Assembly (NCBI GenBank): GCA_019119355.1
Contig: DWXE01000001.1
Span: 1-64,000, forward strand
Direction of reading: 5' to 3'
Source: Candidatus Eisenbergiella merdigallinarum
Lineage (GTDB): Bacteria; Bacillota; Clostridia; Lachnospirales; Lachnospiraceae
Length of the DNA: 64,000 nucleotides
In this document: positions 2,054 through 27,895 of the stretch, piece by piece
Position numbering within the stretch: position 1 is the stretch's first letter
Layout: the number at the start of each line of letters is the position of its first letter
Translations under genes and position numbers: made by a program
Notes under the pieces: model-generated
Database searches by the model: none
The model's input: only the letters and a program-made list of their open reading frames with translations
Told to the model about the DNA's origin: nothing

Positions 2054-2092
2054 GGCAAAAGAGTTCGGCTCGAAACTGTAAATGAATGGAAG

Positions 2093-2125
2093 GAAAGGCT
2101 CTTTATATCAGGTAAAGGGCCTTTC
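2093..2125 (+). promoter_or_regulatory. Intergenic stem-loop between binding protein and permease genes
   Basis: GAAAGGCTCTTTA at 2093-2105 pairs with TAAAGGGCCTTTC at 2113-2125 across a 7-base loop, with one G-U pair. The following bases (TTTAT) are only weakly U-rich. Such hairpins after abundant binding-protein genes commonly protect the upstream mRNA or attenuate transcription, so the binding protein is made in excess over the permeases. That role is inferred here. Confidence 0.55.
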
Positions 2126-2151
2126 TTTATAAGAGAAAGAAGGGACAGGTT

Positions 2152-3066: not shown

Positions 3067-3084
3067 TCGAGGAGGACGAAGACA

Positions 3085-10750: not shown

Positions 10751-10761
10751 AGGAGACTGAC

Positions 10762-11400: not shown

Positions 11401-12377
11401 GATATCTGGCTGGAATCGACATCGGCGGGACGAAATGCGCCGTCACCGTGGGAAAGGAAACGGGGACGGGAATTGAAATTCTGTATAAGGAGAAATTCCC
11501 CACGCCGGACGCGCCGGAGGAAGCGGTGGAAAAGCTGGTGAGCGTTCTTCGGGAGATGCTCCGGGAGCATCCGGAAGTGAACCTCTCCGCCGTGGGCGTC
11601 AGCTGCGGCAGCCCCCTGGATTCGGAAAAAGGGCTGATTCTGTGCCCGCCCAACCTGCCCAACTGGGATCGCATCGACGTGGTTACCCCGTTTATGGAGG
11701 CCTTCGGCGTGCCGGCGGCGGTGCAGAACGACGCCAACGCCTGCGCCCTGGCGGAATGGCTCTGGGGCGCTGGAAAGGGCGCCAGGAACATGGTGTTTCT
11801 CACCTTCGGAACGGGGCTGGGAGCCGGGCTGATCCTGGACGGGAAGCTCTACACCGGCACCAACGACATGGCCGGGGAGGCCGGGCATGTGCGCCTGGCT
11901 GAAGACGGGCCGGAGGGTTATGGAAAGCGTGGATCCTTCGAGGGGTTCTGCAGCGGCGGCGGCATCGCCCGGGCCGCGGTTCCCAGAGTGAAGGAATGGC
12001 TGGCCGCAGGACGGACCACAGCCATTTTGGACCGGGGACAGGCTCCGGAGGAGGTGACCACCCAGGACGTGGGGCTGGCCGCCCAGAACGGGGATGAGCT
12101 GGCGCTGTCCATCCTGCGCGATACGGGGCGGATGCTGGGGCGCGGCCTGGCCATGCTGATGGACCTTTTAAATCCCCAGAGGATCGTCATCGGCAGCATT
12201 TTCCTGCGCCAGGAGGAGATCCTGCGCGGTCCCATGGAAGAAATCATTCAACGGGAGGCCCTTTCCTATACGAGAGAGGTCTGCGAAGTGGTTCCTGCCG
12301 GGCTGGGAGAACAGCTGGGCGATTACGCAGCCCTGTCCGTGGCCGGCAATCTGTTGCAGAAAGGAATGGAACGATGA
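11397..12377 (+). CDS. ROK-family sugar kinase
   Basis: The protein has 326 residues. The ATP motif AGIDIGGTKCAVTVG and the catalytic Asp112 in QNDANACALAEWLWG are clear, as are TFGTGLGAGLILDG and GEAGHVRL. The usual ROK zinc motif (CxCGxxGCxE) is replaced by EGYGKRGSFEGFCSG, which keeps only the Glu. Zinc binding in the standard way is therefore not expected. It overlaps both neighbours by four bases, so its translation is probably coupled. A glucokinase, mannokinase or N-acetylhexosamine kinase role is possible; a mannokinase would fit the surrounding mannosidases. Confidence 0.85.
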   Translation: MRYLAGIDIGGTKCAVTVGKETGTGIEILYKEKFPTPDAPEEAVEKLVSVLREMLREHPEVNLSAVGVSCGSPLDSEKGLILCPPNLPNWDRIDVVTPFMEAFGVPAAVQNDANACALAEWLWGAGKGARNMVFLTFGTGLGAGLILDGKLYTGTNDMAGEAGHVRLAEDGPEGYGKRGSFEGFCSGGGIARAAVPRVKEWLAAGRTTAILDRGQAPEEVTTQDVGLAAQNGDELALSILRDTGRMLGRGLAMLMDLLNPQRIVIGSIFLRQEEILRGPMEEIIQREALSYTREVCEVVPAGLGEQLGDYAALSVAGNLLQKGMER

Positions 12378-15300
12378 AGGTGAAAGATCCGCACTTCGTG
12401 CTGGAGAAAATTCAAAAATACATCGACGAGGACATCCGCCCTTCCCGGATCCGGGAAGCGGTGGACATCGAACCCTGGAAATATTATGAAACCGACATGG
12501 ACGACAGGATCGACGACGCCTGGAAACCGGATTACGACGACAGCGGGTGGCAGGATTTCCGCCTTTGGGATACCTGGGGCGGCTACGATAAGGTAGCGTG
12601 GTTCCGCACCCGCGTGGGGGTGCCGGAGAGCTTTCAGGGCGGTCAGGTGGCGCTGAAATTCCTGGTGGGCCCCAGGGACGGCGGGGATTCCACCGCGGAG
12701 ACGCTGCTGTATGTGGACGGCAAACCGGTGCAGGGCATCGATATCTGGCACGAGGAAGCGCTGCTGGAGCCGGAACTGTGCCAAAAGAGCGAACTTCAGA
12801 TCGCCCTGAAATCCTGGAGCGGGGTGCTGGTCCCGCCGAAGTTTCGGACCTTTAAGCTGGCGCAGCTTTTGCTCGTGGACATGGCCGTGGACAAATTCTG
12901 CTTCGTCATCGATACGGTGCGCCGCTGCGCGCTTTTGCTGGACGAGGACGATCTGCGCCGGATCCGGCTGACCCAGCTGTTAAACGAGACGTTTCGGCGG
13001 GTGGATTTTTTAAATTACAGGGAAGAATCCTATTACGCCTCCATCCGGTCGGCGCTGGAGTACGTCCAGGGACAGCTGGACGAGCTGGCGAAGGTGGAGG
13101 AGATCAAGCCGGCAGTCTACGGGGTGGGGCATTCCCACATCGACATGGCCTGGCTGTGGCGGCTGTGCGCCACCCGGGAAAAGGCTTCCCGCACCTTCTC
13201 CACGGTGCTCAATCTGATGAAGCAGTATCCGGAATACCGGTATATGCATTCCTCCCCGCAGCTGTATCAGTTCCTGAAAGAGGATTATCCGGAACTCTAC
13301 GAAGAGGTGAAGGAGCGGATCGCAGAGGGGCGCTGGGAAATCACCGGCGGCATGTGGGTGGAGCCGGATACCAACATCCCTTCCGGCGAATCCCTGGTGC
13401 GCCAGTTCGTTTATGGAAAGCGGTTCATCCGGGAGGAATTCGGGAAAGAGACGTATCTGGTGTGGCTGCCGGACGTGTTCGGCTATTCCGCGGCCTTCCC
13501 CCAGATTATGAAAAAGTGCGGCATGAAGTATTTTATGACCACGAAGATCTCCTGGAATCAGTACAACCATTTCCCTTACGATACGTTTTTGTGGAAGGGG
13601 ATCGACGGCTCCGAAATCTTCACCCACTTCATCACGACCCCGGAGGACGGTTCCTGGTTTTATACCTACAACGGGCACATGGATCCCGAAGAGGTGACGG
13701 GCGTCTGGAAAAATTACAAGGATAAGGACAAAAACCACGAGCTGCTCATCGCCTTCGGCTGGGGCGACGGCGGCGGGGGCCCCACCCGGGAGATGCTGGA
13801 ACAGAGCCGGGTGATGAAAAATATCCCCGGCATCCCGAAGGTGGAGATCACCTCGGCGGAAGGGTATTTCGAAAAGATTTACGAACATACGGACCATGAA
13901 AAGCTGGGAAAATGGGACGGGGAGCTGTATTTCGAACTCCACCGCGGCACCTACACCTCCCAGGCGGCCAACAAGCGCTACAACAGGAAGACGGAAATCC
14001 TTCTGCACGACATCGAGGCCATGTCCGTGCTGGCGGGGCTTTCCACGGGTTACGCGTGGCCGAAGAAGGAGCTGGATGAAATCTGGGAGCGGGTGCTGTT
14101 AAACCAGTTCCACGATATTCTGCCCGGGTCTTCCATCCGGCAGGTGTATGAGGACACCGCGAAGGACTACGAAGCCATCGCCCAAAAGGGCGGCGGGCTG
14201 CTGGATGCGGCCGTTTCGGTCCTCCGGAGGACGGTGGAGGTGAAGGACGATTCCGCAATCCTCTACAACATGACCGGCTATCGGCGCTCGGACTACGTGC
14301 GCATCCCTTACGGGGAGAGGATCCATAAGGACACCGTGCTTTTGGGAGAAGAGGGGCCGCTGGCCGTTTCGCCCGGAGCGGACGGGCTCTACGTCCATGT
14401 GGACGGGATCCCGGCCTACGGATACAAAACCCTGAAAATCGGCGGGGCGGACGAGGCTGTGACCGCTCAGGGAGAGGCCATGCGCGCGACGCAGGACGGC
14501 GTCGAAACCCCGTATTACCGGATGACCTTCAACGGAAACGGGGAGATCGAAAGCCTGTATGACCGGGAAAACCGCAGGCAGATCGACTGCGGCAGGCCCA
14601 TGAACGTTTTCGCCGCTTTCGAGGACAAGCCCCAGCGCTTCGACGCCTGGGATGTGGACGTGTACTATAAGGAAAAACCCTACGCGCCCTTCGCGTTAAA
14701 GAGCAGGGAAGTGATCCGGGAAGGGCAGAGGCTCATCGTCCGCCAGACCTGGAGCTTCAACCGTTCCTCGCTCAGCCAGGATATGATCCTCTACGAAAGG
14801 AGCCGCAGGATCGATTTCGAAACTACGGTGGACTGGAAGGAAGAGCAGGTATTCTTAAAAGCCTGCTTCCCGGTGGACATACACGCCGTGGAAGCCACAT
14901 ATGAAATCCAGTTCGGCAACATCAAACGGCCCACCCATACCAATACGGAATGGGATTTCGCCCGGTTCGAGGTATCCGGACACCGGTGGGCGGACCTGTC
15001 CGAAGGGGATTACGGCGTGGCGATTTTAAACGACTGCAAATACGGCTACGACATCCACGAAAACGTGCTGGGGCTGTCTTTGATCAAATCCGCCGTGCGG
15101 CCGGATGAGACGGCGGACCGGAAGGTGCACCACTTTACCTATTCCCTCTACCCTCACGCGGGGGACGTGGAGCATTCGGATGTGCAGCAGGAGGCCGTGA
15201 ACTTAAATCAGCCCGTTCTCGTCGATGTGGCTGAGGGCGCAGGGCAGGGCGCAGCCTTTTTGCAGGACGGCCTGGTGCGCACGGACTGCGGCCATATCCT

Positions 15301-15529
15301 CATCGATACGGTGAAGCGGGCGGAGGACGGAGACGGCATCGTGGTCCGGCTGTACGAGTTCCGCAACCGCAAAGGGCGCGCGAACCTGACCTTCGGCCGT
15401 CCGGTGAAAAAAGTGACGGAGACGAATCTGTGCGAAGAGGGAGGAGAGGAAGTTTCGGTGAAAGACGGCGGAATTTCCTTCGACATCGGCTGTTATGAAA
15501 TCAAAACGTTTCGCGTGTGGTTTTCGTAA
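12374..15529 (+). CDS. Large GH38 alpha-mannosidase with N-terminal domain
   Basis: The protein has 1051 residues with an N-terminal beta-sandwich extension of about 245 residues before the catalytic domain, as in the cytosolic Man2C1/Ams1 type. The zinc motif is VGHSHIDMAWLWRL (His255, Asp257), the nucleophile is Asp367 in WLPDVFGYSAAFP, and NQFHDILPGSSI follows later. No signal peptide is present. It overlaps the ROK kinase gene by ATGA. Members of this group trim free oligomannosides in the cytosol, which agrees with the import model for this operon. Linkage preference is not readable. Confidence 0.93.
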   Translation: MKVKDPHFVLEKIQKYIDEDIRPSRIREAVDIEPWKYYETDMDDRIDDAWKPDYDDSGWQDFRLWDTWGGYDKVAWFRTRVGVPESFQGGQVALKFLVGPRDGGDSTAETLLYVDGKPVQGIDIWHEEALLEPELCQKSELQIALKSWSGVLVPPKFRTFKLAQLLLVDMAVDKFCFVIDTVRRCALLLDEDDLRRIRLTQLLNETFRRVDFLNYREESYYASIRSALEYVQGQLDELAKVEEIKPAVYGVGHSHIDMAWLWRLCATREKASRTFSTVLNLMKQYPEYRYMHSSPQLYQFLKEDYPELYEEVKERIAEGRWEITGGMWVEPDTNIPSGESLVRQFVYGKRFIREEFGKETYLVWLPDVFGYSAAFPQIMKKCGMKYFMTTKISWNQYNHFPYDTFLWKGIDGSEIFTHFITTPEDGSWFYTYNGHMDPEEVTGVWKNYKDKDKNHELLIAFGWGDGGGGPTREMLEQSRVMKNIPGIPKVEITSAEGYFEKIYEHTDHEKLGKWDGELYFELHRGTYTSQAANKRYNRKTEILLHDIEAMSVLAGLSTGYAWPKKELDEIWERVLLNQFHDILPGSSIRQVYEDTAKDYEAIAQKGGGLLDAAVSVLRRTVEVKDDSAILYNMTGYRRSDYVRIPYGERIHKDTVLLGEEGPLAVSPGADGLYVHVDGIPAYGYKTLKIGGADEAVTAQGEAMRATQDGVETPYYRMTFNGNGEIESLYDRENRRQIDCGRPMNVFAAFEDKPQRFDAWDVDVYYKEKPYAPFALKSREVIREGQRLIVRQTWSFNRSSLSQDMILYERSRRIDFETTVDWKEEQVFLKACFPVDIHAVEATYEIQFGNIKRPTHTNTEWDFARFEVSGHRWADLSEGDYGVAILNDCKYGYDIHENVLGLSLIKSAVRPDETADRKVHHFTYSLYPHAGDVEHSDVQQEAVNLNQPVLVDVAEGAGQGAAFLQDGLVRTDCGHILIDTVKRAEDGDGIVVRLYEFRNRKGRANLTFGRPVKKVTETNLCEEGGEEVSVKDGGISFDIGCYEIKTFRVWFS

Positions 15530-15582: not shown

Positions 15583-15652
15583 CTTTCCGGCCTGTTTCCG
15601 GTTTGCGGCGATAGAGAGCGGCATGATCAAAAAAAACGGGGAGAAAAAAATT

Positions 15653-18316
15653 ATGGATATTTCGCTGTCAGGGCTTTCCTGGGAACTGAAAGGATACTGG
15701 CCCTATGTGCCCATCAAGGAAAAGAGCATGGAGACCGGGCAGACGCTGCAGGGGGTGACCGACTGGATCCCGGCGAAGGTGCCCGGAGGGGTTCACTGCG
15801 ATCTCTGGCGGGCGGGCCTCATCGAGGACCCGTATTTCGGACAAAACAGTTTGAAGTGCGAGTGGGTGGAAAACCGCTGGTGGATGTACCGCACGGCCTT
15901 TCCGGGAACGCTGGACGGAACGGATCTGACAAAAGAAAGGGCTATCCTGATCTTTCAGGGGCTGGACTACGAGGCGGAGGTGTTTTTCAACGACGAAAGC
16001 TGCGGTTCCCATACGGGGATGTACACCCCCTTTGAAGTGGATCTTACGGGAAAAATCCGGGACGAAAACCGGCTGGTGGTGCTCTTAAAGGGCGTGCCGC
16101 AGGAGATGGGCCAGATCGGGTTCACCTCCCGGACGTTCACCCAGAAGAGCCGGTTCAATTATAAATGGGACTTCTCCACCAGGCTGGTGAACATCGGCAT
16201 CTGGCAGGACGTGAAGCTGCACTTAAGAAAAGAAGCCGAACTTTCGGAACTTCACATCGATACGGATTTTGCGGACGGAAAGGGAAAGATTTTCGTTTCC
16301 GCCCTGGCGGAGGATTTCCGCAAAGAAAGCGGCCGCGGGGAAAGAAAACAGGATCTGGCTGTGAAGCTGACCGTGGAAGGGCCGTATCTGTGCGAGAGCG
16401 AAGATGTGGCCGCCTTAAAGGGCATGGCGCGGGACGGGCAAAAGGCGCGCGCTGCGGCCGGTGGGGAAAAGCCTTCCGTCCGCGTCAGCCTTACGGTCCC
16501 GGTGAAAGACGGGCGGATCGACGAAACGCTGGAACTGAACGCCCCGGCCCTCTGGAATCCAAACGGATGCGGCCTGCCCTGGCTGTACGGCGTCCGCATG
16601 GAACTGACGGAAGGGACGGCCGCGGGCGGGCGGGTCCTGGACTCCATGGAGAAAAAGACGGGAATCCGTTCCCTCGCCATGGCGCAAAACGAAGGCGCTC
16701 CCGAAGGAGCCCTTCCCTATACCTTCGTGGTCAACGGCAGGAAAATCTACATCAAGGGCGTCAATATGACCCCGCTGGATCACCTGTACGGAACCGTCAC
16801 GAAGGAACAGTATTCCCATCTGGTGACCGCCATGGTCAACGCCGGGGTGAACCTGGTGCGGGTCTGGGGCGGCGGCCTCATCGAGAAGGAGGAATTTTAC
16901 GATCTGTGCGATGAGAACGGCATTCTGATCTGGCAGGAATTCATTCAGTCCAGCTCCGGCATCGACAACCTTCCGTCCCGGCGGCCGGAATTTCTGCGCC
17001 TCCTGGAGGAAACCTCCGTATGGGCGGTGAAGGAAAAGCGCAACCACGTCAGCCTGGCCGTTTACAGCGGTGGAAACGAGCTGATGGACGCGCCGGACAG
17101 GCCCTGCGGCCTGGAAAACGAAACCATCGCCATGCTGCTTGAGATCGTCAGGCGTTACGACGGCAGGCGGCCGTTTCTGCCCACCTCCGCTTCCGGCCCC
17201 AGGGAATATATTACCCGGGAAAAGGGCGTCAGCCACGACGTCCACGGCAACTGGCGCTACGAGGGAAACCCGGGGCACTATGAGCTCTACGGGCAGTCGG
17301 ACAACCTGTTCCACAGCGAATTCGGCATGGACGCGGTATCCTGCGTCAAGAGCTTAAGGAAGTTTCTGCCGGAGCGCTCCCTTAGGCCCACGCCCATGAC
17401 CGGGGATCTGACCTGGCAGCACCACGGGGAATGGTGGGGCACCTATTACCGGGACTGCGGGATCTTCGGCCCCATCGAAAAGACGCCCGAAAACCTGGAG
17501 CTGTTCGCGCGATGCAGCCAGTATATGCAGTCAGAGGGACTTCGCTTCATTCTGGAAGCGGACCGGAAACGGGCCTTTCACAACAGCGGGGTCATCATCT
17601 GGCAGCTCAACGAGCCCTGGCCCAACGCCTCCTGCACCAATCTCATCGACTGGTATCAGGAGCCCAAAACCGCGTACTATCAGACGAAGCGGGCCTATGA
17701 GCCGCGCCACGTTTCCCTGGATTACCGGAGCCTGACCCTGTCGGGGAAGACTTCCATGGACGTTTATGTGGAAAACGACGAAGCGGCCTTTTCGGGACGA
17801 ATCCGGGCGCTGGTCAGAACCCTTTCCGGAGAGACGCTGCAGGAGGAGACGCTCTTTTTGCAGGTTCCGGAAAACGGCAGCGTTTGCGCGGGAAGGGTGA
17901 CCGTCGAACCGCGGGAAGGCGAAGAGCTGATTTTCATCACCCTGTTGCTGGAAGCGGACGGGGAGACGGTTTCGGAGAATACCTATCTGTTCGGGACGAA
18001 GGAGCAGGAGGTGCTTTCGCCCCTTCGTAAAACGCCGGGGCGGGTGGAACTGGTCCGGTATTCGGCCGGGGAGCTTGCGGGCGGAAGGATGGCCCTTTCG
18101 GCGACGGTGAGAAACGCCGGGACGCGGGCGGTGCTGGACGCCGGCGCGGAGCTGGCGGGGGAAGGATACGCCCTGCTGGGAGGGGACAACGACCGCGTTC
18201 TCTTTCCGGGAGAGGAGAGGACGTTTCATTTCCTGGCGATCCCCAAACGCTGCGGCGGGTTTTCGCAGGCGCAGAATTCCGGCGGAGCGCCCGCGCTGAA
18301 GCTTCACTGGCTGTAA
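15653..18316 (+). CDS. GH2 beta-mannosidase
   Basis: The start at 15653 (MDISLSGLSWEL) gives 887 residues and follows GGGGAG by nine bases; an in-frame ATG at 15623 is an alternative. The fold is jelly-roll, Ig-like, then TIM barrel. The diagnostic barrel stretch is RVWGGGLIEKEEFYDLCDENG and WQEFIQSSSGI, typical of beta-mannosidases. The acid/base is Glu476 (SGGNELMD) and the nucleophile is Glu556 (HSEFGMDA). No signal peptide is seen. It should release beta-linked mannose, for example from the Man-beta-1,4-GlcNAc core or from beta-mannan oligomers. A second enzyme of the same family is at 53173. Confidence 0.92.
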   Translation: MDISLSGLSWELKGYWPYVPIKEKSMETGQTLQGVTDWIPAKVPGGVHCDLWRAGLIEDPYFGQNSLKCEWVENRWWMYRTAFPGTLDGTDLTKERAILIFQGLDYEAEVFFNDESCGSHTGMYTPFEVDLTGKIRDENRLVVLLKGVPQEMGQIGFTSRTFTQKSRFNYKWDFSTRLVNIGIWQDVKLHLRKEAELSELHIDTDFADGKGKIFVSALAEDFRKESGRGERKQDLAVKLTVEGPYLCESEDVAALKGMARDGQKARAAAGGEKPSVRVSLTVPVKDGRIDETLELNAPALWNPNGCGLPWLYGVRMELTEGTAAGGRVLDSMEKKTGIRSLAMAQNEGAPEGALPYTFVVNGRKIYIKGVNMTPLDHLYGTVTKEQYSHLVTAMVNAGVNLVRVWGGGLIEKEEFYDLCDENGILIWQEFIQSSSGIDNLPSRRPEFLRLLEETSVWAVKEKRNHVSLAVYSGGNELMDAPDRPCGLENETIAMLLEIVRRYDGRRPFLPTSASGPREYITREKGVSHDVHGNWRYEGNPGHYELYGQSDNLFHSEFGMDAVSCVKSLRKFLPERSLRPTPMTGDLTWQHHGEWWGTYYRDCGIFGPIEKTPENLELFARCSQYMQSEGLRFILEADRKRAFHNSGVIIWQLNEPWPNASCTNLIDWYQEPKTAYYQTKRAYEPRHVSLDYRSLTLSGKTSMDVYVENDEAAFSGRIRALVRTLSGETLQEETLFLQVPENGSVCAGRVTVEPREGEELIFITLLLEADGETVSENTYLFGTKEQEVLSPLRKTPGRVELVRYSAGELAGGRMALSATVRNAGTRAVLDAGAELAGEGYALLGGDNDRVLFPGEERTFHFLAIPKRCGGFSQAQNSGGAPALKLHWL

Positions 18317-18335: not shown

Positions 18336-20648
18336 ATGGCGACCATAGCGGATCGAAGCGATTTTTCTCTGGAGCTGGAATTCACCCGGATTTACCGGGA
18401 AAACGCGGGAGTCCATCCGGCGTTAAGGGAGGCAAGGTGCCTGGCCTGGCAGCTGCCCCGGATCGTTTTGGACATCGAAGAGGACGATCTGGTGCCCGGC
18501 GGCTGCCATTACGGGGCCGTGGGATTTTCCAGCCAGATCGGCGGATTTTTGTACTATTCCCACGAAGAGAAGATCGACGAGGAGATCGAAAGGAACCAAA
18601 ACCGGCCCGACTACTGCCGAAAGCTTCGGGAAATGAAGGAGTTCTGGAAAAAGGAGGACTGCAAAACCAGGCTGCGGCAGCGCTACAGCGAAAGCCAGCT
18701 GCTGGCCCTTCCCACGGACGACTGGGAGGGGGAAAAGGCCGTCGCCTATCCCCTGTACCGGATCGCCGGCGGGATCCTGGACTTCAAAAAGCTGCTGACC
18801 CTGGGGCTGCCCGGGCTGTACGCCCTGATCGAAGAGAAGAAACAGAGCGCGGTTTCCGGCGGCGGGGCGGATCTGGTCTACGCCGGGATGCTGCTGTGCC
18901 TGGATACGCTCAGGGAAGTGATCGGCCTGTACCGGAAGCGGGCCGGGGAACGGGCAAAGGAGATTTCGGGCCGGGAGCGGACGCTGGAAAACGAAGCGGC
19001 CTTCCGGAGGATGAAGGCGGTGGAAGGGGCCATGGATTCCATCCTGACAAAACGGCCGGCCCATCTGCTGGAGGCGGTGGAGCTGTTCTGGATGTATGTG
19101 CTGGTGTCGGAGGTGCGAAACTACGGCAGGATCGACGACTATCTGGGGACGTTTTACGCCGACGACATCGACAGCGGCTATCTGACCGGGGAGCAGGCCG
19201 ACGGCATCGTGCGAAAGCTCTGGGAGCGGATGGCGAAACGGCGCACCATCACCGATGGCAGGGTGTTCGTGGGCGGCCGGGGCAGACAGGACGAAGCGAA
19301 GGCGGACCGGTTCGCGAAAGTCTGCATTCAGGCCACCAGGGAGCTGAAGAACCCGGATCCCCAGCTATCGCTGCGGTTCTATAAAGGGATGGATCCGGAA
19401 CTTCTGGATCTGGCCTACGACGCCATCGGGGAAGGCTGCACCTATCCGGTTTTGTATAACGACGACTGCATCGTCCGGGACGTGTGTCACGCCTTCGGGC
19501 TGCCGGAGGAGACGGCGGTTTCCTACGTGCCCTACGGCTGCGGGGAATACGTCATCGACCACCAGAGCTTCGGAACCCCCAGCGGCGTGATCAACCTGAT
19601 GAAGGGTCTGGAGCTGTTTCTGGACGCCGTAACGGAGAGCAAAAACCCGGATGCGGAATATCTGCAGGGCGAAGCCGGGAAGGAACGGATGGAGCGGCTG
19701 AAGGAGGCCGCGGGCCTGTCCCGGACGGCAAAGGATTACAGAAGCTTCGACGATTTTTACGGGGACTATCGGAAATGGATCGCCTTCCACATCGAAGCGC
19801 TGGCGCAGCAGGAGAAGATGGAGTACGATTTCGCCGGAGAGGTGTGCGGCCTTTCCTGGCTGTCCATGCTCTACGACGACTGCATCGACCGGGGCAGGGG
19901 GCTGTTTTCCGGCGGGATCCGCTATCTGGGAGGCACCATGGAGAGCTACGGCAACGTCAACGCGGCCGACAGCCTCACCGCCATCAAAAAGCTGGTGTTC
20001 GAAGAGGGAAAAACGGATCTGAACGCCCTGACGGCGGCGCTGAAGGCCGATTTTGGCGGCGATCCCCTCTTGTGGAAACAGGCGAAACGCTGCCCCAAAT
20101 TCGGGAACGACGAAGAGGAGCCCGACGGGATGCTGCGGTCCTTGCACCGGTTCGTCTGCAACACAGCGGCCGCTCAGGCGAAAAAGGTGGGGCTGGACAC
20201 GTATCTGACCGTGGTGATCAACAACAGCGCCAACACCACCCTGGGCCTTTTGACCGGGGCCGGGGCGGACGGCAGAAGGGCCTATACGGCCATGGCCAAC
20301 GCCAACAGCCCCCAGGCCGGAGCGGATACCAAAGGCGTGACGGCCGTCCTCAACTCCATGCTGAAGGCGGATACCGACATTCACGCGGGAGCGGTACAAA
20401 ACGTGAAGTTTTCCAAAGATACGTTTCAGAACCATCGGGATGCGGCCAGAGGGGCCATGGAGTCCTATTTCGACCGCGGGGGAGCCCAGCTCATGGTCAC
20501 GGTGGTGGGGCGGCAGGATCTGGAAAACGCCATGGAACGGCCGCAGGACTATACCGGCCTTCTGGTGCGGGTGGGCGGATTTTCCGCCCGGTTCGTGGAG
20601 CTTTCGCCGGAAGTGCAAAAGGATATCTTAAGCCGCACCTGTTACTAG
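18336..20648 (+). CDS. Glycyl radical enzyme of uncertain reaction (PFL-like/dehydratase family)
   Basis: This 770-residue protein has the architecture of a glycyl radical enzyme. The radical loop near the C-terminus is VRVGGFSARF, with the predicted radical at Gly748, 22 residues from the end. The thiyl cysteine is Cys402 in VPYGCGEYV, followed by Glu404. Known eliminating members (glycerol, diol and hydroxyproline dehydratases, choline lyase) have Gly-Cys-Val-Glu here, whereas pyruvate formate-lyase has Cys-Cys. The Cys-x-Glu layout therefore favours a dehydratase/lyase over a formate-lyase, with a Val-to-Gly change. The activase gene follows after 11 bases. Its position among mannosidases and sugar kinases suggests a sugar-derived or polyol substrate. 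The exact reaction is unknown, and the protein needs anaerobic conditions. Confidence 0.88.
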   Translation: MATIADRSDFSLELEFTRIYRENAGVHPALREARCLAWQLPRIVLDIEEDDLVPGGCHYGAVGFSSQIGGFLYYSHEEKIDEEIERNQNRPDYCRKLREMKEFWKKEDCKTRLRQRYSESQLLALPTDDWEGEKAVAYPLYRIAGGILDFKKLLTLGLPGLYALIEEKKQSAVSGGGADLVYAGMLLCLDTLREVIGLYRKRAGERAKEISGRERTLENEAAFRRMKAVEGAMDSILTKRPAHLLEAVELFWMYVLVSEVRNYGRIDDYLGTFYADDIDSGYLTGEQADGIVRKLWERMAKRRTITDGRVFVGGRGRQDEAKADRFAKVCIQATRELKNPDPQLSLRFYKGMDPELLDLAYDAIGEGCTYPVLYNDDCIVRDVCHAFGLPEETAVSYVPYGCGEYVIDHQSFGTPSGVINLMKGLELFLDAVTESKNPDAEYLQGEAGKERMERLKEAAGLSRTAKDYRSFDDFYGDYRKWIAFHIEALAQQEKMEYDFAGEVCGLSWLSMLYDDCIDRGRGLFSGGIRYLGGTMESYGNVNAADSLTAIKKLVFEEGKTDLNALTAALKADFGGDPLLWKQAKRCPKFGNDEEEPDGMLRSLHRFVCNTAAAQAKKVGLDTYLTVVINNSANTTLGLLTGAGADGRRAYTAMANANSPQAGADTKGVTAVLNSMLKADTDIHAGAVQNVKFSKDTFQNHRDAARGAMESYFDRGGAQLMVTVVGRQDLENAMERPQDYTGLLVRVGGFSARFVELSPEVQKDILSRTCY

Positions 20649-20659
20649 AGGAGACGAAG

Positions 20660-21598
20660 ATGGCGGAAACGGGAAACATTTTTTCCATCCAGCGGTTCTC
20701 GATCCACGACGGACCGGGAATCCGCACCAGCATCTTCTTTCAGGGCTGTCCGCTGCGCTGCGCGTGGTGCCACAACCCGGAGAGCTGGCAGGCTGCCGGG
20801 CCGGTGCTGCAGTTTCTGAAGGCGGAGTGCATCGGCTGTATGGCGTGCGGGAAGGTCTGTCCAAACGGCGTCCACCGCTTTGAAAACGGCGTCCATGTGA
20901 TGGATAAAAGCCGCTGTACGGGCTGTATGGCCTGCGCGGACGCCTGTCCCGCGGACGCCTTAAGGGCGCTGGGCCGGCGGATGAGCGCGGAGCAGGTGCT
21001 GGAAGAAGCGCTGCGGGACGCGCCCTATTACAAAGAGGAAGGGGGCGTGACTTTGTCCGGCGGGGAGCCCCTTTTGCAGGCGAAGTTCGCGGCGAAGGTG
21101 CTGGAAGGCTGCAAAAAAGCCGGGATTTCCACCTGCGTGGAGACGGCGGGGTTCGTGCCCTGGGAAGCCTTTGAACGGGTGCGGGAGCTGACGGACCTGT
21201 TTTTATTCGATTATAAGCTGGACAGCCAGGAGCAGATGGACCGCTGCACCGGCGGAAACCGGGAGACGATCCTGGACAATCTCAAAAAGCTGGCGGCGTC
21301 CGGAGCGGCCATCGTCCTGCGCTGCCCCATCGTCCCCGGCATCAACGACGCGGACGGCCACTTTTCGGCCATCGCCGCCCTGGCGGAGGAATGCGGCATT
21401 TCGGAGGTGGAGCTGATGCCCTATCACAGCTGGGGAGAACCCAAGTGGGAGCAGGTGGGCAGGCCCTACGGCCTGTCCGGATTAAAGACCGTCTCCGAAG
21501 AGGAGGCCGCCGCATACCGCGCCCGTCTGAACCGGGCGATGGAACTGGAACAAAAAAGACGGAAACAGAGGAAAACAGAAGAGGAATGGAAACCATGA
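20660..21598 (+). CDS. Glycyl radical enzyme activating protein (radical SAM)
   Basis: The protein is 312 residues, starting at the ATG six bases after GAGGAGA. The radical SAM motif CPLRCAWC (Cys30, Cys34, Cys37) follows the activase signature IHDGPGIRTSIFFQGC. It carries two inserted ferredoxin-type 4Fe-4S motifs (Cys57/60/63/67 and Cys86/89/92/96), as in activases of dehydratase-type glycyl radical enzymes rather than the short PFL activase. GGVTLSGGEPLLQ is the conserved SAM-binding segment. It should use SAM to generate the radical on Gly748 of the preceding enzyme. The stop overlaps the next gene by ATGA. Confidence 0.92.
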   Translation: MAETGNIFSIQRFSIHDGPGIRTSIFFQGCPLRCAWCHNPESWQAAGPVLQFLKAECIGCMACGKVCPNGVHRFENGVHVMDKSRCTGCMACADACPADALRALGRRMSAEQVLEEALRDAPYYKEEGGVTLSGGEPLLQAKFAAKVLEGCKKAGISTCVETAGFVPWEAFERVRELTDLFLFDYKLDSQEQMDRCTGGNRETILDNLKKLAASGAAIVLRCPIVPGINDADGHFSAIAALAEECGISEVELMPYHSWGEPKWEQVGRPYGLSGLKTVSEEEAAAYRARLNRAMELEQKRRKQRKTEEEWKP

Positions 21599-23655
21599 GA
21601 CTGGAAGGAAACAGCGCGAAAATCATTCTGAACAGACAAAAGAGCGGGAAGCAGGAGCTGGAGGCAGTCCGCGGGGAAAAAGGAGCGTTTGAGGCGCAGG
21701 CGGAGGGCGTATCCGCCGGGCTTTGGCTGGAAGAGACAAATGGCTGCGTCCTGGGACGGGTGAAGGTATCCTTAAAAAACGAGTCCTGCCGGGAAAACGA
21801 CAACCTGGCCCTGACGAATCCGGTGACGGTGTGTATGGAAACGGCCCGGCAGCCCCTTCGCATGACGGCCCTGTATCTGCACCGGGACTGGTGGACCCGC
21901 CCCGCCTTCGTGACGAAGTGGGAGGAGCTGCCGGAGAGAACCCAGTGCGTTTACCTGGAATACGAGGACGGTTACGGCTGCCTGATGATGCTGGCCGGAA
22001 CGGAATTTAAGGCCAACGCCGTGGGGCTGGAAGCGGGAAAGCTGTGCATCGTTCTCAACGCTTACCGGGGCGGGCAGTCCTGCGCGGACGAGCCGGTCTT
22101 CGTCTGGGCCATGGGCGGCAGCGTCTATGAGGCGGTCCACGCCTGCGCCCTGGCGGCGGCCGGGGAAACCGGAGCGGTTTTAAAGGAGAACAAGGAGTAC
22201 CCGCCCATGTTCGACTATCTGGGCTGGTGCAGCTGGGACGCCTTCTATACCGATATCTGCGAGGAAAAGGTGCGGGCGAAGGCGGCGGAGCTGAAGGAAA
22301 AGGACGTTCCCATCCGCTGGATGCTCCTGGACGACGGCTGGCAGTCCGTGCGGGATCAGAGGATGTACGATCTGATGCCGGACCGGGAGAAGTTCCCGGA
22401 AGGGTTTGCGAACATGATCCGGGAGATCAAAGACGGCAGCAGCGTGGATTACGTGGGGGTCTGGCACGCCCTGGGCGGCTACTGGGGCGGCATCGAACCC
22501 GGCAGCCGGGCGCATATGCAGGAGGCGGACTGCCTGTATGAGACGGTTTCCGGCAAGGTGCTCCCTTACCCGGACGCGAAGAAGGGCTACGGCTTTTACC
22601 GGGACTGGTATGAAAAACTGCGGCGGGAAGGGATCGATTTCGTCAAGGTGGACGGGCAGAGCGCCGTCAAAAACTACTATGAAAACGAGATTTCCGTATG
22701 CCGGGCGGCCCGGGAGACTCATAAGGCGCTGGAAGGAGCCGCGGGGGCCTATATGGGGGGACGGCTGATCAACTGCATGGGCATGGCCATGGAGAACGTG
22801 CTGGGACGCCAGGGCTCCGCCGTAAGCCGCAACAGCGACGATTTCCTCCCCAACGAGCCGGAAGGATTTGCGGAGCACCTGCTGCAAAACGCCTATAACG
22901 CGGTGTACCACGACGAATTTTACTACTGCGACTGGGATATGTTCTGGACTTATCATCCGGACGCGAAAAAACACGCCCTGCTGCGGGCGGTGAGCGGCGG
23001 CCCTGTGTATTTCAGCGACCGGATCGGGGACACCGACCGGGCGGCCGTTCTGCCGCTGATCGCGAAGGACGGCAGGCTTTTGCGGATGGACCGGGCTGCG
23101 AAGCCTTCCCCGGACAGCCTGTTTGCGGATCCCACAAAGGACGGCCTCATCAAGATGACCAATACGGCGACCTGCGGTCTGGACGGCCTTTCGGGCGGCG
23201 CGGTGGCGGTCTACAACCTGAGCAAAAAGGCGGGTTCCGGGACGGTTTCCGCCGGGGACGTCTACGATCTGCCCGCAGGCGAATATTATTGCTATGACTG
23301 GAACGCGGGCAAAGGACGGCTGCTTCGGGAAGGGGAAAGCCTTCCGGTGAGCCTGGAAGCGGACGGCTTCGCCCTGTATCTGCTGATTCCCGTACAGGAC
23401 GGGCGGGCGCTTGTGGGCCTGACGGAAAAATACGTCTCCTTCCTGGGAATCCGGCATGCCGCCGGGACAAAAAAGGGATTCTGGGCGGCCGCAAAGGAAG
23501 AGGGAACCTTCGCCTTCTACAGCCAGAGGGGCGTGAAGCGCTGCCTGGTGAACGGAAAGGATGTGACCGGTTCGCTGCAGGAAGCGGACGGGCTGTATCG
23601 GATCAGCTGTCCGGAAGAAGGCGAATCCATGATTCTGGTGGAAGAGGAGGAATGA
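21595..23655 (+). CDS. GH36-type alpha-galactosidase / raffinose-synthase-like (Sip1) glycosidase
   Basis: The start at 21595 gives 686 residues with an ATGA overlap to the activase gene. The (beta/alpha)8 barrel shows LGWCSWDAFYTDI and LDDGWQS. The nucleophile is Asp353 in FVKVDGQ, and RNSDDF (Asp415/416) holds the acid/base. These are features of the raffinose synthase/Sip1 branch of GH36. Bacterial and archaeal members of this branch are alpha-galactosidases rather than plant-type transferases. No signal peptide is seen, so it should remove alpha-galactose (or a related sugar) from imported oligosaccharides. Specificity is family inference only. Confidence 0.82.
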   Translation: MRLEGNSAKIILNRQKSGKQELEAVRGEKGAFEAQAEGVSAGLWLEETNGCVLGRVKVSLKNESCRENDNLALTNPVTVCMETARQPLRMTALYLHRDWWTRPAFVTKWEELPERTQCVYLEYEDGYGCLMMLAGTEFKANAVGLEAGKLCIVLNAYRGGQSCADEPVFVWAMGGSVYEAVHACALAAAGETGAVLKENKEYPPMFDYLGWCSWDAFYTDICEEKVRAKAAELKEKDVPIRWMLLDDGWQSVRDQRMYDLMPDREKFPEGFANMIREIKDGSSVDYVGVWHALGGYWGGIEPGSRAHMQEADCLYETVSGKVLPYPDAKKGYGFYRDWYEKLRREGIDFVKVDGQSAVKNYYENEISVCRAARETHKALEGAAGAYMGGRLINCMGMAMENVLGRQGSAVSRNSDDFLPNEPEGFAEHLLQNAYNAVYHDEFYYCDWDMFWTYHPDAKKHALLRAVSGGPVYFSDRIGDTDRAAVLPLIAKDGRLLRMDRAAKPSPDSLFADPTKDGLIKMTNTATCGLDGLSGGAVAVYNLSKKAGSGTVSAGDVYDLPAGEYYCYDWNAGKGRLLREGESLPVSLEADGFALYLLIPVQDGRALVGLTEKYVSFLGIRHAAGTKKGFWAAAKEEGTFAFYSQRGVKRCLVNGKDVTGSLQEADGLYRISCPEEGESMILVEEEE

Positions 23656-23661
23656 GACGCC

Positions 23662-24255
23662 ATGTACGAAGAGCAGAAAAGGGAACTGGTTCGGATCTGC
23701 CATCTCCTATATGAAAAAAATCTGGTGACTGCGGCGGACGGAAACGTCAGCGTCCGGGTTTCTGAGGAGCACATCCTGCTCACCCCTTCCGGAAAGAGCA
23801 AGGGTTTCGTGGAGGAAGGGGATATCCTGGTGCTGGATCTGGAGGGCCATCTGGCGGAAGGGGCCGGCAAGCCCAGCCGGGAATACCCCATGCACAGGGC
23901 GGTGTACGAAGAACGGCCGGAGGCTGGAGCCGTGGTCCACACCCATCCGGTCTTTGCCACGGCCTTTGCCATGGCGGGGAAAACGGTTCCGGACCGCTAT
24001 CTGATCGAGACGAAAGTGGCCCTAAAGGGGATCGCCCTGGCCGGTTACGCCGCTCCGGGCAGCGATGCGCTGGCGGAGCAGGTGCGGAAAGTGGCGGCGG
24101 GCAACGATGCGATTTTGCTGCAAAATCACGGGGCGCTCACCGTGGGACACGACCTGATGGACGCTTTTTTAAAGATGGAAGTGCTGGAATGCGTGGCGAA
24201 GACCATCATCATGTCCCGCCTGGTGGGGGACCCGGTGGCCATCCCGGAAGAGTAG
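23662..24255 (+). CDS. Class II aldolase/adducin family protein (FucA-like)
   Basis: The 197-residue protein has the features of zinc class II aldolases of the L-fuculose-1-phosphate/ribulose-4-epimerase family. They are AADGNVSVRV, the phosphate-binding LTPSGKSKG, catalytic Glu74 in PSREYPMHR, and zinc ligands His93 and His95 in VVHTHP and His156 in LQNHGALTVG. It could cleave fuculose- or rhamnulose-1-phosphate. Alternatively it could be an OtnC-type 3-oxo-tetronate-4-phosphate decarboxylase, which would fit the four-carbon-acid kinase at 9461. It lies between two GH36 genes, seven bases after the first. Confidence 0.83.
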   Translation: MYEEQKRELVRICHLLYEKNLVTAADGNVSVRVSEEHILLTPSGKSKGFVEEGDILVLDLEGHLAEGAGKPSREYPMHRAVYEERPEAGAVVHTHPVFATAFAMAGKTVPDRYLIETKVALKGIALAGYAAPGSDALAEQVRKVAAGNDAILLQNHGALTVGHDLMDAFLKMEVLECVAKTIIMSRLVGDPVAIPEE

Positions 24256-24281: not shown

Positions 24282-26393
24282 ATGAGCCAGCGGCTTCACG
24301 TCGAAGAGAGCGGCGTTTTTCTGGAATTTGAAGTGACGGACAAAGGGGAGACGCTTTTGCTGCACTGCCAGCGAACCCCTTTTTCGGAAGCGTCCGTGGA
24401 AGAAGGGCAGAAGGAATGGTACCGGCTGGTGGAAATCCAGGCGGCCGGAGAGGATCAGGACGATCATCACGGGGCCAAATATACGGGTACCCTGCCGGGC
24501 AGGCGGCTGGTTTTCCAGGGCCTGGAGGAGGAAAGAAACGAAAGGGGGCGCCGCGTCACGGTGTCCCAGAAGGACGAAGTCACCGGGCTTTTGGTGAGGA
24601 GCGTCCTGCAGTTCGTCGGTGCCACCGGAGTGTTCGAGAGCTGGACGGAGGCGGAAAACCGGGGGGTGGAGGCCGTTGGGCTCACCTACGTTTCCTCCTT
24701 TTGCCTGAACGGCCTGACGAAGGATTCCGGTCTGCCCTGGGACAGGGCCGCGCGGCTGTACGTGCCCTCCAACAGCTGGTACGGGGAGTTTCAGTGGAAT
24801 TGCCATACCCTTCCGCAGCTGGGCATGAAAAAGGCCTTCGACTATTCCACAAAACGCGTTTCGTTTTCTTCCACGGGAACCTGGACTTCCAAGGAGTTCC
24901 TTCCCATGGGCTATGTGGAGGACGCGAAGGCGGGGCAGGGCTGGTATTTTTCCATCGTCCACAACGGCTCCTGGCACTGGGAGGTGGGGGACAGCAGAAA
25001 TCAGATTTACCTGCAGCTCTCCGGGCCGGCTGAGGCGGAAAATCACTGGTTTCGCAGCCTAAAGCCCGGGGAGATCTTTACGACCGTTCCGGCGGCCGTG
25101 GCGCCCGCGGCGAATTTCGAGGAAGCGGTGGAAAGAATGACAGCTTACCGGCGGGCGGTGCGGCGCAGAAACGAAGACGACGAAAAGCTGCCCGTGATCT
25201 TCAACGACTTCATGAACTGCCTGGGAGGGGATCCCACGGCGGAAAAGGAATATCCCCTCATCGATGCGGCGGCCGCCATCGGCTGCGAATATTACACCAT
25301 CGACGCGGGCTGGTACGCCAACGGCTCCTGGTGGTCCCGGGTGGGCGAGTGGGAGCCCGCCGAAAAGCGGTGGCCGGGCGGCATCGGCAGGGTGCTTTCC
25401 TACATCCGGCAAAAGGGCATGGTGCCCGGCCTGTGGCTGGAGCTGGAGGTGATGGGGATTCACTGTCCCATCGCGCAGGAATTGCCGGACGACTGGTTTT
25501 TCATGCGCCACGGGAAGCGTGTCATCGACCACGGCCGCTATCAGCTGGATTACCGCAACCCTCAGGTGAGGGAGTTCGCGGACGGGGTGATCCGCCGTCT
25601 GGTGGAGGAATACGGGGCCGGCTACATCAAGATGGACTATAACATCGACGCGGGAACCGGCACGGAGACCGGAGCGGACAGCGCCGGGGACGGGCTGCTT
25701 TCGCACAACCGGGCCTATCTGGAGTGGCTGGATCACGTCTTTGAAACCTGGCCGGATCTGATCATCGAAAACTGCGGCAGCGGCGGGATGCGCATCACCG
25801 ACGCCCTGCTCTCGAGGCACAGCATTCAGTCCAGCAGCGACCAGACGGACTATCTGGCCTATGCGGCCATCGCGGCCGCGGCCCCCGCGGCGGTGACGCC
25901 GGAGCAAAACGCGGTCTGGTCCTATCCCCTACGGGATGCGGACGCCGAGCAGACGGCCTTCAACATGGTCAACGCCATGCTCATGCGCATCCATCAGAGC
26001 GGCCATCTGGCCAGGCTGTCGGAGGAAAACATCTCCCTGATCCGGGAGGGGATCGCATACTACAAGGAGATCCGCCGCCTGATCAAAGCCTCCGTCCCGT
26101 TCTGGCCCCTGGGGATGCCCGCCTTCGGACAGGGCCGTTTCGCCCTGGGGATGATGAACGGCGAATGCGCTCACCTGGCGCTGTGGAGGACCGAAGATCC
26201 CGGGGAGGCCGTGACGGTGCCCTTAAAGGGATTCGAGGAGCGGTTCGGGCGCAGGATCCGGTATGTGGAAACGGTATATCCCAAAGAATTGCCCTGCGCC
26301 TGGGAGTGGGATGAGCGGAGCCGGAACCTGACCGTCCGGCAGCCGGAAAAGAGCGCCCGGTTGTTTCGGATCGTCTGCGAGCCGCAGCGTTGA
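24282..26393 (+). CDS. GH36 alpha-galactosidase (melibiase clan)
   Basis: The protein has 703 residues, the usual length for clan-D alpha-galactosidases. An N-terminal beta-supersandwich precedes the barrel, where FNDFMNCLGG, YTIDAGWY and GLWLELEVMG are visible. The nucleophile is Asp452 in YIKMDYN, ENCGSGGMR follows, and the acid/base is Asp520 in SSSDQTDY. No signal peptide is found. It should hydrolyse terminal alpha-galactosides in the cytosol and is only distantly related to the GH36 enzyme two genes upstream. Alpha-N-acetylgalactosaminidase activity cannot be excluded. Confidence 0.88.
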   Translation: MSQRLHVEESGVFLEFEVTDKGETLLLHCQRTPFSEASVEEGQKEWYRLVEIQAAGEDQDDHHGAKYTGTLPGRRLVFQGLEEERNERGRRVTVSQKDEVTGLLVRSVLQFVGATGVFESWTEAENRGVEAVGLTYVSSFCLNGLTKDSGLPWDRAARLYVPSNSWYGEFQWNCHTLPQLGMKKAFDYSTKRVSFSSTGTWTSKEFLPMGYVEDAKAGQGWYFSIVHNGSWHWEVGDSRNQIYLQLSGPAEAENHWFRSLKPGEIFTTVPAAVAPAANFEEAVERMTAYRRAVRRRNEDDEKLPVIFNDFMNCLGGDPTAEKEYPLIDAAAAIGCEYYTIDAGWYANGSWWSRVGEWEPAEKRWPGGIGRVLSYIRQKGMVPGLWLELEVMGIHCPIAQELPDDWFFMRHGKRVIDHGRYQLDYRNPQVREFADGVIRRLVEEYGAGYIKMDYNIDAGTGTETGADSAGDGLLSHNRAYLEWLDHVFETWPDLIIENCGSGGMRITDALLSRHSIQSSSDQTDYLAYAAIAAAAPAAVTPEQNAVWSYPLRDADAEQTAFNMVNAMLMRIHQSGHLARLSEENISLIREGIAYYKEIRRLIKASVPFWPLGMPAFGQGRFALGMMNGECAHLALWRTEDPGEAVTVPLKGFEERFGRRIRYVETVYPKELPCAWEWDERSRNLTVRQPEKSARLFRIVCEPQR

Positions 26394-26419
26394 CGCGAGA
26401 GCGTTGGAACGGAGGAAAA

Positions 26420-27895
26420 ATGCCGAACGTGGTTTTGATCACAACCGACCAGCAGCGCTTCGACAGCCTGGGCTGCAACGGGAGTTCCTGGATTCATACC
26501 CCGGCGCTGGACGCCCTGGCGGCCGGCGGGGCCCTGTTCCGGCGGGCGTACTGTTCCAATCCGGTGTGTACGCCCTCCCGGGTTTCCATCATGACCGGCC
26601 AGCTGCCCTCCCGCCACGGTTCCTATAACATCGGCACCGCGGCGGCGGACTGCAGCCGCTTTCTGAGCACTGTTCTGACGGAACGCGGATACCGGACCCA
26701 TCAGCTGGGAAAGGCGCATTTTTATCCCTGGGATGTGGCGTCGCCGGAAACCGCGGTGCCGGACGGGACGGCCCCCTTTCGGGATTTCGCCGGCTTTGAG
26801 ACGGCGGAGCTGACCACGGGCCATACCGACTGGGGCGTTTCCGGCCACTATGAGGCCTGGCTGGCGGAACGCGGCGTCAAAAAGGGACATGGTATGCCGC
26901 AGCTTCAGGTCTGCCGGCTGACGGAAGGGGACGCCTATCAGGCCGGGGACTGGGGAATGCCGGTCTCTTTGCACAGCGGAGCCTGGATCGTGGATCGGAC
27001 GGAGGATTTTTTGAAAAACAGGGATCCTGCCCGCCCTTTTTATCTCAACATCGGCTTTCAGGATCCCCATCACCCCCTGTCCGTGCCGGGGGAGTGGCCC
27101 AAAATCCCGCCGGAAAAAATTCCCCTCCCCAAAGGGGCGGCGGACGAACGGATCGGCCCTCAGAAGGCCCTGCGGGAAGGGACGGTGGAAGAGGACTGGG
27201 GCGGGCCGTTCGGCATGGCGGGAAATCAGGATACGGTCTGGAAGGACGTATCCGCGGAAGCGGTGCGGACGGCCCGCAGCTATTATTATTCCATGGTGGA
27301 ACTGTTCGACAGCCAGCTGGGGCGGCTCGTGGGCCTGCTGAAGGAGTACGGCGTTTTCGACGACACCCTGCTGATCGTCACCAGCGATCACGGGGACATG
27401 CTGTTCGATCACGGGCTTGGCCAAAAGGGGCCCGTGGCCTACGAGGAAGTGCTGAAAGTCCCTCTTCTGATGAGCTGGCCGGGCAAAATCCGGCCCCAGA
27501 CCGTACAGGAGCCGGTTTCTCTGACGGATCTGTACCCCACGATCCTGGACGCGCTGCACATCCCCTGCCCAGGGCCCTGCGACGGGCTGTCTCTGATGCC
27601 GCTTCTCGCCGGAGGCGAATCCGGAAAGGGGCTGTGCCGGCGTGGGGTGATGGCGGAATTCAAGGAGGAAAGGGACGCCGTCCGTTACCGGTGCTTCATC
27701 GCGAAGGACTGGAAGCTGGTGGAATATCAGGGAGCCGGTTTCGGCGAGCTGTATCACCTGAAAGAAGATCCGGGGGAGGAGAGAAACCTCTGGTTCGATC
27801 CGGCGTATCTGCCGGTAAAATATGAACTGCTGCGGCAGATGCTGGAGGAAGCGGATCGACACGCGTTTCTTTCGGACAGGCCGTGCAGATGTTAG
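26420..27895 (+). CDS. Sulfatase (formylglycine-dependent, Cys type)
   Basis: The start at 26420 follows GGAGGAAAAA and gives 491 residues. The N-terminus PNVVLITTDQQRFDSLGC carries metal-binding Asp residues. NPVCTPSR is the CxPxR sulfatase signature, with Cys50 to be converted to formylglycine. HTDWGVSGHYE and SDHGDMLFDHG complete the alkaline-phosphatase-fold metal site. It lacks a signal peptide, so it would desulfate sugars already in the cytosol. In anaerobes Cys-type sulfatases are matured by the radical SAM enzyme anSME, which is not in this window. The presence of a sulfatase implies that some imported glycans are sulfated, as in mucin or sulfated N-glycans. Confidence 0.9.
   Translation: MPNVVLITTDQQRFDSLGCNGSSWIHTPALDALAAGGALFRRAYCSNPVCTPSRVSIMTGQLPSRHGSYNIGTAAADCSRFLSTVLTERGYRTHQLGKAHFYPWDVASPETAVPDGTAPFRDFAGFETAELTTGHTDWGVSGHYEAWLAERGVKKGHGMPQLQVCRLTEGDAYQAGDWGMPVSLHSGAWIVDRTEDFLKNRDPARPFYLNIGFQDPHHPLSVPGEWPKIPPEKIPLPKGAADERIGPQKALREGTVEEDWGGPFGMAGNQDTVWKDVSAEAVRTARSYYYSMVELFDSQLGRLVGLLKEYGVFDDTLLIVTSDHGDMLFDHGLGQKGPVAYEEVLKVPLLMSWPGKIRPQTVQEPVSLTDLYPTILDALHIPCPGPCDGLSLMPLLAGGESGKGLCRRGVMAEFKEERDAVRYRCFIAKDWKLVEYQGAGFGELYHLKEDPGEERNLWFDPAYLPVKYELLRQMLEEADRHAFLSDRPCRC

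Follow-up and report, generated by a model that had tools for sequence, protein, structure and literature searches.

Candidatus Eisenbergiella merdigallinarum, a member of the Lachnospiraceae, encodes a glycyl radical enzyme (GRE) and its activating enzyme side by side in a sugar operon. We analysed positions 1 to 64,000 of contig DWXE01000001.1 (64,000 nucleotides, hereafter the window), in which the GRE occupies 18336–20648 on the forward strand, as do all window features described here. The open reading frame (ORF) runs for 770 codons without an internal stop, its ATG is preceded by an AAGGAG-like site, and the gene coordinates leave 19 bases to the gene upstream and 11 bases to the gene downstream. 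The 770-aa protein scored 263 bits with the Pfam model PFL-like and 71 bits with Gly_radical, above the cut-off in each case. Its predicted thiyl residue is Cys402, its putative base Glu404 and its predicted radical residue Gly748. Cys402 lies within YGCGEYV and Gly748 within RVGGFSARF, which confirms in this ORF the cysteine motif and the intact VGGFSARF loop named in a preliminary description of the DNA. According to an excerpt of PMC11528403, a C-terminal RVxG[FWY] is the GRE superfamily motif. The AlphaFold2 model, built from a 70-sequence alignment, had a mean predicted local distance difference test score of 94.6, and Foldseek recovered the GRE fold with confidence, the top solved structures being propanediol/glycerol dehydratases (5i2g, 1r8w). 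The window protein therefore carries the superfamily motif, the mid-protein Cys and the GRE fold. Judged from its sequence, it is an intact glycyl radical enzyme, and radical formation is predicted from its motifs and from family knowledge. The cognate activase, a GRE-activating radical S-adenosylmethionine enzyme of 312 aa (20660–21598), carries the motif CPLRCAWC and two ferredoxin-type [4Fe-4S] motifs (CX2CX2CX3C) and scored 322.8 bits against TIGR02494 (cut-off 174); the two-ferredoxin activase proposed earlier is thus intact.

Relatives of the window GRE were collected from GTDB species genomes, the best 80 of 425 being taken, and from a search of the window's order (392 genomes, threshold E 1e-60). 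Matches at this threshold or better occurred in 20 of the 392 genomes, the window's own included; the order search gave 23 matches, of which G196 and G217 were left out and G282 (L047) served as a reference. The resulting clade set held 100 rows, 97 of them distinct (three identical pairs), and five other GREs in the same loci were excluded from the signature counts. Many members are metagenome-assembled genomes (MAGs), and the clade reaches ten phyla: Bacillota, Bacteroidota, Ignavibacteriota, Acidobacteriota, Verrucomicrobiota, Planctomycetota, Spirochaetota, Chloroflexota, Actinomycetota and Pseudomonadota. Among the best 80 of 425, the closest relatives were those of Eisenbergiella tayi and Lachnospiraceae CE91-St56 (72–75% identity), and the next were 36–43% identical. 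A FastTree analysis of the 100 clade rows with 12 reference GREs (YbiW, PflD, PflB, three CutC, one CutC-like, three HypD and two others) grouped the clade rows with full support on a long branch. The same separation appeared in a 40-row mixture-model tree (27 clade rows and 13 references, glycerol dehydratase having been added), in which long branches were flagged, and in both trees the clade stood apart from YbiW and PflD. A phylum-wide search of 299 genomes at the very strict limit of 1e-150 found no gene other than that of the window, which says little beyond patchiness, and a blastn search of E. coli with the Citrobacter-type gene of L111 gave no match. The trees set the clade apart from the reference families tested, and we take it to be an uncharacterised group of predicted GRE eliminases. 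No description of it was found in the literature searched, where coverage of subscription journals was poor. Two records in the set call for comment. The clade GRE ORF of a Bacteroidales MAG from roe deer (L075:9818–12193) starts with a Tat-like, lipobox-like stretch (RRDFLK ... LASC), which could be an export signal or an oddity of the assembly or start site. The record NZ_OY725812.1 (L159), entered as a Parabacteroides distasonis plasmid, has dnaG, ftsH, lon and nusB and is probably chromosomal.

The catalytic cysteine motif was GCGE in 93 of the 100 clade rows and GCTE in the other 7, so that C[G/T]E, and hence CXE, was kept throughout. A chance motif is thereby ruled out, and the Gly after Cys, as far as the alignment tells, is neither accidental nor private to the window gene. 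According to PMC7077986 and PMC8473560, CXE marks GRE eliminases; the former proposes its Glu as the base, and the isethionate sulfite-lyase IslA carries Cys-Ile-Glu. Because this glutamate is kept, the window GRE should be an eliminase: it falls within the CXE motif definition of that class, and 1,2-elimination is predicted. The middle letter in the other GREs compared was Val, Ile, Ala or Ser and never Gly or Thr, with Val and Ile in the characterised enzymes and Ala and Ser in two uncharacterised GREs (L144, L002); several compared GREs lacked CXE and had GCVD, GCND, GCNW or no such motif that could be found. The preliminary description had taken GCGE as a sign of novelty. Gly or Thr is indeed private to the clade among the CXE-bearing GREs compared, but the motif is still CXE, and since its middle letter varies among eliminases, GCGE by itself is no proof of new chemistry, for which the deletions and altered pocket residues described below make the better case. 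Some of the GREs outside the clade are of interest in themselves. L002 lies on contig C14 of the window's own genome and is a further unusual GRE with GCSE and RVGGFTDYF. A second, different GRE, with GCNW replacing CXE, sits close to the clade GRE at L090:12903 and L100:5255. The GCND-bearing GRE at L041:6330–8657 stands beside a dehydrogenase, an FGGY-like kinase (assigned by eye) and DeoC, and looks like a separate polyol-to-deoxysugar system.

Residues and loops around the active site set the clade apart more broadly. The beta1 site holds Gly in 97 of 100 clade rows, where YbiW, PflD and HypD have His and CutC has Asp; HypD moved one column over in a second alignment, which leaves the precise column uncertain, but no member had His there. 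Arg309, Pro415, Glu536, Asn629 and Asn630 were present in all 100 rows and in none of the 12 or 13 references of the two alignments. Arg142 was equally invariant and occurred in 0 of 12 references in the first alignment, but its column was shared by three HypD and PflB in the second, which makes it an alignment-dependent mark; Arg317 was invariant in the clade yet found in three references. The loop before GRID has 8 residues in 100/100 members versus 14–15 in 13/13 references, and the stretch before beta3 has 13 residues in 96/100 members versus 26–27 in 11/13 references (33 and 12 in the others). The second of these deletions takes out the glycerol dehydratase Phe333 position in all 100 members. 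We read these changes as making the clade pocket roomier and more polar, which would fit a larger polar substrate. Arg142 lies just past the strand matching beta1 (residues 137–139) in the AlphaFold model. The excerpts of PMC7077986 and PMC8473560 have the beta1 arginine of IslA serving its sulfonate, and HypD Arg156 perhaps balancing the substrate carboxylate. Given this placement of Arg142, an anionic group on the substrate is plausible.

Comparison with characterised families indicated that the window GRE matches no known enzyme and is separate from the reference families tested. Its top NCBIfam match, the broad PFL2-3 subfamily, scored 270 bits with the cut-off at 678. Full-length equivalog models for sulfopropanediol dehydratase, PRK09983, HypD, CutC, HPAD, indoleacetate decarboxylase and pyruvate formate-lyase gave 59–206 bits against cut-offs of 994–1150, including choline trimethylamine-lyase CutC (TIGR04394, 174 bits, cut-off 1050), trans-4-hydroxy-L-proline dehydratase HypD (NF043068, 180.7 bits, cut-off 1100) and pyruvate formate-lyase (TIGR01255, 59 bits, cut-off 994). 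These scores rule out the known equivalogs as its identity, and Gly401-Cys402 in place of a Cys-Cys pair excludes pyruvate formate-lyase. A phmmer search of the PDB placed diol dehydratase 5i2a at the top (185 bits) and scored chains of E. coli PflD and YbiW at roughly 167–171 bits; the YbiW and PflD substrate complexes ranked 35 and 39 in the Foldseek list, at 22 and 21% identity. The glycerol and 1,2-propanediol dehydratases (1r8w, 5i2g) share the fold (TM 0.82–0.85), the Cys and Gly loops and the CXE glutamate with the window GRE, but they are only about 23% identical to it, and the clade lacks their beta1 His, Asp447 and Phe333 segment and has the two deletions. Of the glycerol dehydratase residues His164, Asp447 and Phe333, the first two of which we take to be catalytic, the window GRE has Gly145 for His164 and Pro415 for Asp447, while Phe333 falls in a deletion; none of the three is kept in any of the 100 rows. 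The setting differs as well, being a sugar operon and not a microcompartment or diol locus: a search of the genome (assembly 89.97% complete) turned up no bacterial microcompartment (BMC) shell domain, and a microcompartment association is rejected, in line with the preliminary description. YbiW and PflD (8id7, 8id0, 8yjo) are CXE-bearing GREs acting on sugar-like phosphates, and their phosphotransferase system (PTS) and dioxygenase neighbours recall some clade loci; they differ in sharing only 21–23% identity with the window GRE, in their separate place in the trees and in keeping the beta1 His and both loops, and a Pfam scan of 28 window proteins showed no transaldolase-type (FsaA/FsaB-like) gene, the remaining genome not having been searched. 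IslA shares CXE and, according to PMC8473560, has a beta1 arginine, which would fall near the Arg142 position when placed via the HypD alignment, but its substrate is a two-carbon sulfonate and its identity to the window GRE is about 20–22%. Two annotated relatives, WP_009018229 of Parabacteroides distasonis and WP_338399121 of Persicobacter, bear the clade signature (GCTE or GCGE, VRV[S/G]GFS) at 35–41% identity, but their records carry only the generic name 'pyruvate formate lyase family protein'. The earlier proposal of an uncharacterised GRE is thus upheld by the sub-cut-off scores, the low identity to the nearest structures and the trees; the refuting outcome named there, a high-identity cluster shared with a characterised family, was looked for and did not occur.

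The genes for the GRE and activase are closely packed in an operon that also encodes mannosidases, sugar kinases and aldolases. Domain searches identified, upstream, an ABC sugar importer with a binding protein and two permeases (677–3921), an FGGY-family sugar kinase (4620–6092), a class II fructose-bisphosphate-type aldolase (6067–6975) and an 807-aa alpha-mannosidase of glycoside hydrolase (GH) family 38 (7015–9438). These are followed by a DUF1537-type, 3-oxo-tetronate kinase-like kinase (9461–10750; NF043035 241 bits, cut-off 350), a SIS-domain sugar-phosphate isomerase-like (GmhA-like) ORF whose true start is uncertain (10573–11400; gmhA 147 bits, cut-off 209), a ROK-family sugar kinase (11397–12377), a 1051-aa GH38 alpha-mannosidase with four GH38 domain models (12374–15529) and a beta-mannosidase-like GH2 protein with Glyco_hydro_2_N2 and Mannosidase_ig matches (15623–18316, starting at 15623 or 15653). 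The last two also neighbour the GRE in L048, L049 and L068. Downstream of the activase, domain searches found a raffinose-synthase/GH36-like glycosidase (21586–23655, starting at 21586 or 21595), a class II (FucA/AraD-type) aldolase-like protein (23662–24255), a Melibiase/beta-L-arabinopyranosidase-like glycosidase (24282–26393) and a sulfatase (26390–27895). The preliminary picture of a GRE among mannosidases, sugar kinases and aldolases therefore holds. The 3-oxo-tetronate kinase-like and FucA/AraD-type genes together suggest that this operon includes a route for a four-carbon sugar acid; neither gene could be made out in the E. tayi stretch examined.

To compare neighbourhoods across the clade, 41 kb of the window and 3–22 kb at the other loci were scanned, 64 of the 99 non-window loci offering at least 16 kb; neighbour identities were checked on examples, and GH130 and PfkB were assigned by eye. 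Mannose-type genes near clade GREs comprised GH38 (12/100), mannosidase-type GH2 (9), ManA (7), NanE-like epimerase (9), lyxose/mannose isomerase (7) and GH130 (3), and 30 of the 100 loci had at least one. Kinases or PTS were found in 34/100, namely ROK in 20, PfkB in 11 and fructose-type PTS in 8, and the activase was present in 90. Within the window's order, mannose-type genes accompanied 8 of 20 clade loci versus 0 of 20 control GRE loci, and kinases or PTS 11 of 20 versus 2 of 20. On the tree the GH38 label requires no fewer than 6 changes and the joint mannose label 15, so the mannose link is not one inherited block. The set GH38-GH2-GRE-activase-ROK recurs in E. tayi and, on a different branch, in the distant Robinsoniella peoriensis, and ROK-NanE-GRE-activase is found both at loci within the window's order and in Parabacteroides distasonis. 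In the Enterobacteriaceae loci L109, L111 and L120, GntR, a fructose-type PTS, the GRE and the activase are surrounded by unrelated genes, and both the GntR regulator and the fructose-type PTS are also present in L099 and L108. The PTS of L111 was nearest to MngA (388 bits, cut-off 763) and the GH38 of L042 to MngB (596 bits, cut-off 1138); mannosylglycerate as source, the GRE then acting on glycerate or on the intact glycoside, was considered and does not account for all loci. The same applies to amino-sugar C-N cleavage, considered as the clade reaction from NagA and NanE near L097.

Five loci from Bacteroidota, Planctomycetota and Verrucomicrobiota carry a PhyH-type dioxygenase, of a single subfamily, next to the clade GRE or no more than about 5 kb from it: those of Persicobacter (L158), a Sphingobacteriia MAG (L054), a Phycisphaera (L094) and two Verrucomicrobiota (L086, L104). 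None was found in the 20 control GRE loci. A weak match at L050 (37 bits, 8.5 kb away) was left uncounted. In E. coli the DUF1479 gene ybiU, presumably of a related dioxygenase fold, stands two genes from ybiW. An oxygen-using enzyme paired with an oxygen-sensitive one suggests two routes for one substrate, and PhyH and the clade GRE are possibly an aerobic/anaerobic pair. The four PhyH loci among the 100 have neither a mannose-type nor a kinase or PTS gene, so the idea of an aerobic partner and the mannose theme never meet in one locus.

Taken together, we tentatively favour, at a little under even likelihood, a glycyl radical eliminase (C-O lyase) acting on a six-carbon polyhydroxylated manno-type compound from mannoside breakdown under anoxia: a sugar, anhydro-sugar or sugar alcohol, as its phosphate in many hosts. 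Here elimination is drawn from the CXE motif and the substrate class from the pocket and neighbours. The activase would place a radical on Gly748, from where it would move to Cys402, steps that rest on the intact motifs and on family knowledge. As we infer for the later steps and the substrate, the thiyl radical may then abstract a hydrogen atom from a carbinol carbon and Glu404 may take the proton of its hydroxyl, while the oxygen substituent of the next carbon, whether a hydroxyl, a ring ether or a glycosyl oxygen, would depart with the aid of Arg and Asn residues and not of the dehydratase histidine. Return of the hydrogen atom would give an aldehyde or ketone with one oxygen fewer at the next carbon, to be handled by kinases, isomerases, aldolases or a dehydrogenase encoded beside the GRE. 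The preliminary description had suggested a sugar, sugar acid or polyol made by the operon; recurrence of sugar neighbours among members and their rarity near control GREs favour the sugar part, and origin from the operon is conjecture. Several observations weigh against our proposal. Mannose-type genes were absent from 70 of the 100 loci in the DNA scanned, and 55 had neither these nor a kinase or PTS gene; the neighbour hidden Markov models were built from the members' own neighbours, which biases them toward members over controls. None of the 10 GH42-bearing loci matched ROK, PfkB or fructose-type PTS, contrary to a phosphorylated substrate everywhere. The reference L047 has the second deletion too, and the lining of the pocket by the side chains of Arg309, Glu536 and Asn629/630 was deduced from strand positions. 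The large distances within the clade also make several substrates possible.

Among other explanations, motif drift in a known enzyme (a diol dehydratase, choline lyase, hydroxyproline dehydratase or pyruvate formate-lyase) is hardly credible. The fold, the CXE common to dehydratases and the top Foldseek matches would suit it, but the window GRE is only 21–24% identical to the structures of diol/glycerol dehydratase, HypD and CutC, the equivalog scores lie far below cut-offs near 1000, and the replaced or deleted dehydratase residues, the missing Cys-Cys pair and the lack of a microcompartment domain all speak against it. The clade might instead be a convergent variant of the YbiW/PflD anhydroglycolysis lyases, opening the ring of another 1,5- or 2,5-anhydrohexitol (phosphate) by C-O cleavage to a 1-deoxyketose. 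An excerpt of PMC12441222 reports that YbiW and PflD open 1,5-anhydroglucitol-6-phosphate and 1,5-anhydromannitol-6-phosphate. The enterobacterial GntR-PTS-GRE-activase loci somewhat resemble frw-pflD, and the five PhyH genes could be aerobic partners, as ybiU may be for ybiW. We nevertheless regard this as unlikely, given the separation in the trees, the beta1 His, long beta2 loop and pre-beta3 segment that YbiW and PflD keep and the clade lacks, the absence of an FsaA/FsaB-like gene from the scanned window proteins, and the lack of mannose-type, kinase and PTS genes from the four PhyH loci among the 100.

A sugar-alcohol (phosphate) dehydratase yielding a 2-deoxyaldose (phosphate), which deoxyribose-phosphate aldolase (DeoC) would split to acetaldehyde and triose phosphate, seems rather unlikely. 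DeoC is near 8 of 100 members versus 0 of 20 control loci, lies directly upstream of the GRE in the Chloroflexi locus L091 and exceeds the deoC cut-off in both loci tested (L091, L097), and a housekeeping DeoC might account for the bare enterobacterial operon; but there is no DeoC match in window positions 1–41000 or in the nearest relatives L048 and L049, and mannose epimerases and isomerases are left unexplained. Mannose or mannose-6-phosphate could itself be the substrate, losing a ring hydroxyl by ribonucleotide-reductase-like chemistry in a non-Embden-Meyerhof route. The recurrent partners (GH38, GH2, GH130, ROK, ManA, NanE-like epimerase, lyxose/mannose isomerase and PTS) make or use these compounds; yet a central metabolite would be drained, the PhyH partner is left unexplained, the partners may just serve general mannoside use, and most loci have no mannose-type gene, so that we think it distinctly improbable. 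The data decide nothing among the anhydrohexitol, DeoC and mannose explanations. A broader idea, that mannose-type hexoses or hexose phosphates lose oxygen by ribonucleotide-reductase-like chemistry in a widespread sugar-specific clade with PhyH as aerobic stand-in, strikes us as quite unlikely, its chances being lowered by the PhyH loci without mannose-type and kinase genes. If true, it would mean an anaerobic sugar route outside glycolysis, with PhyH standing in for the GRE in some marine and soil bacteria.

To our knowledge, few GREs act on sugars. With its own predicted pocket and recurring mannose-type partners, the clade gives a short list of candidate substrates for our proposed eliminase. 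Its spread over ten phyla, and its presence in gut Lachnospiraceae and Parabacteroides, mark what is probably an undescribed anaerobic step of carbohydrate metabolism.

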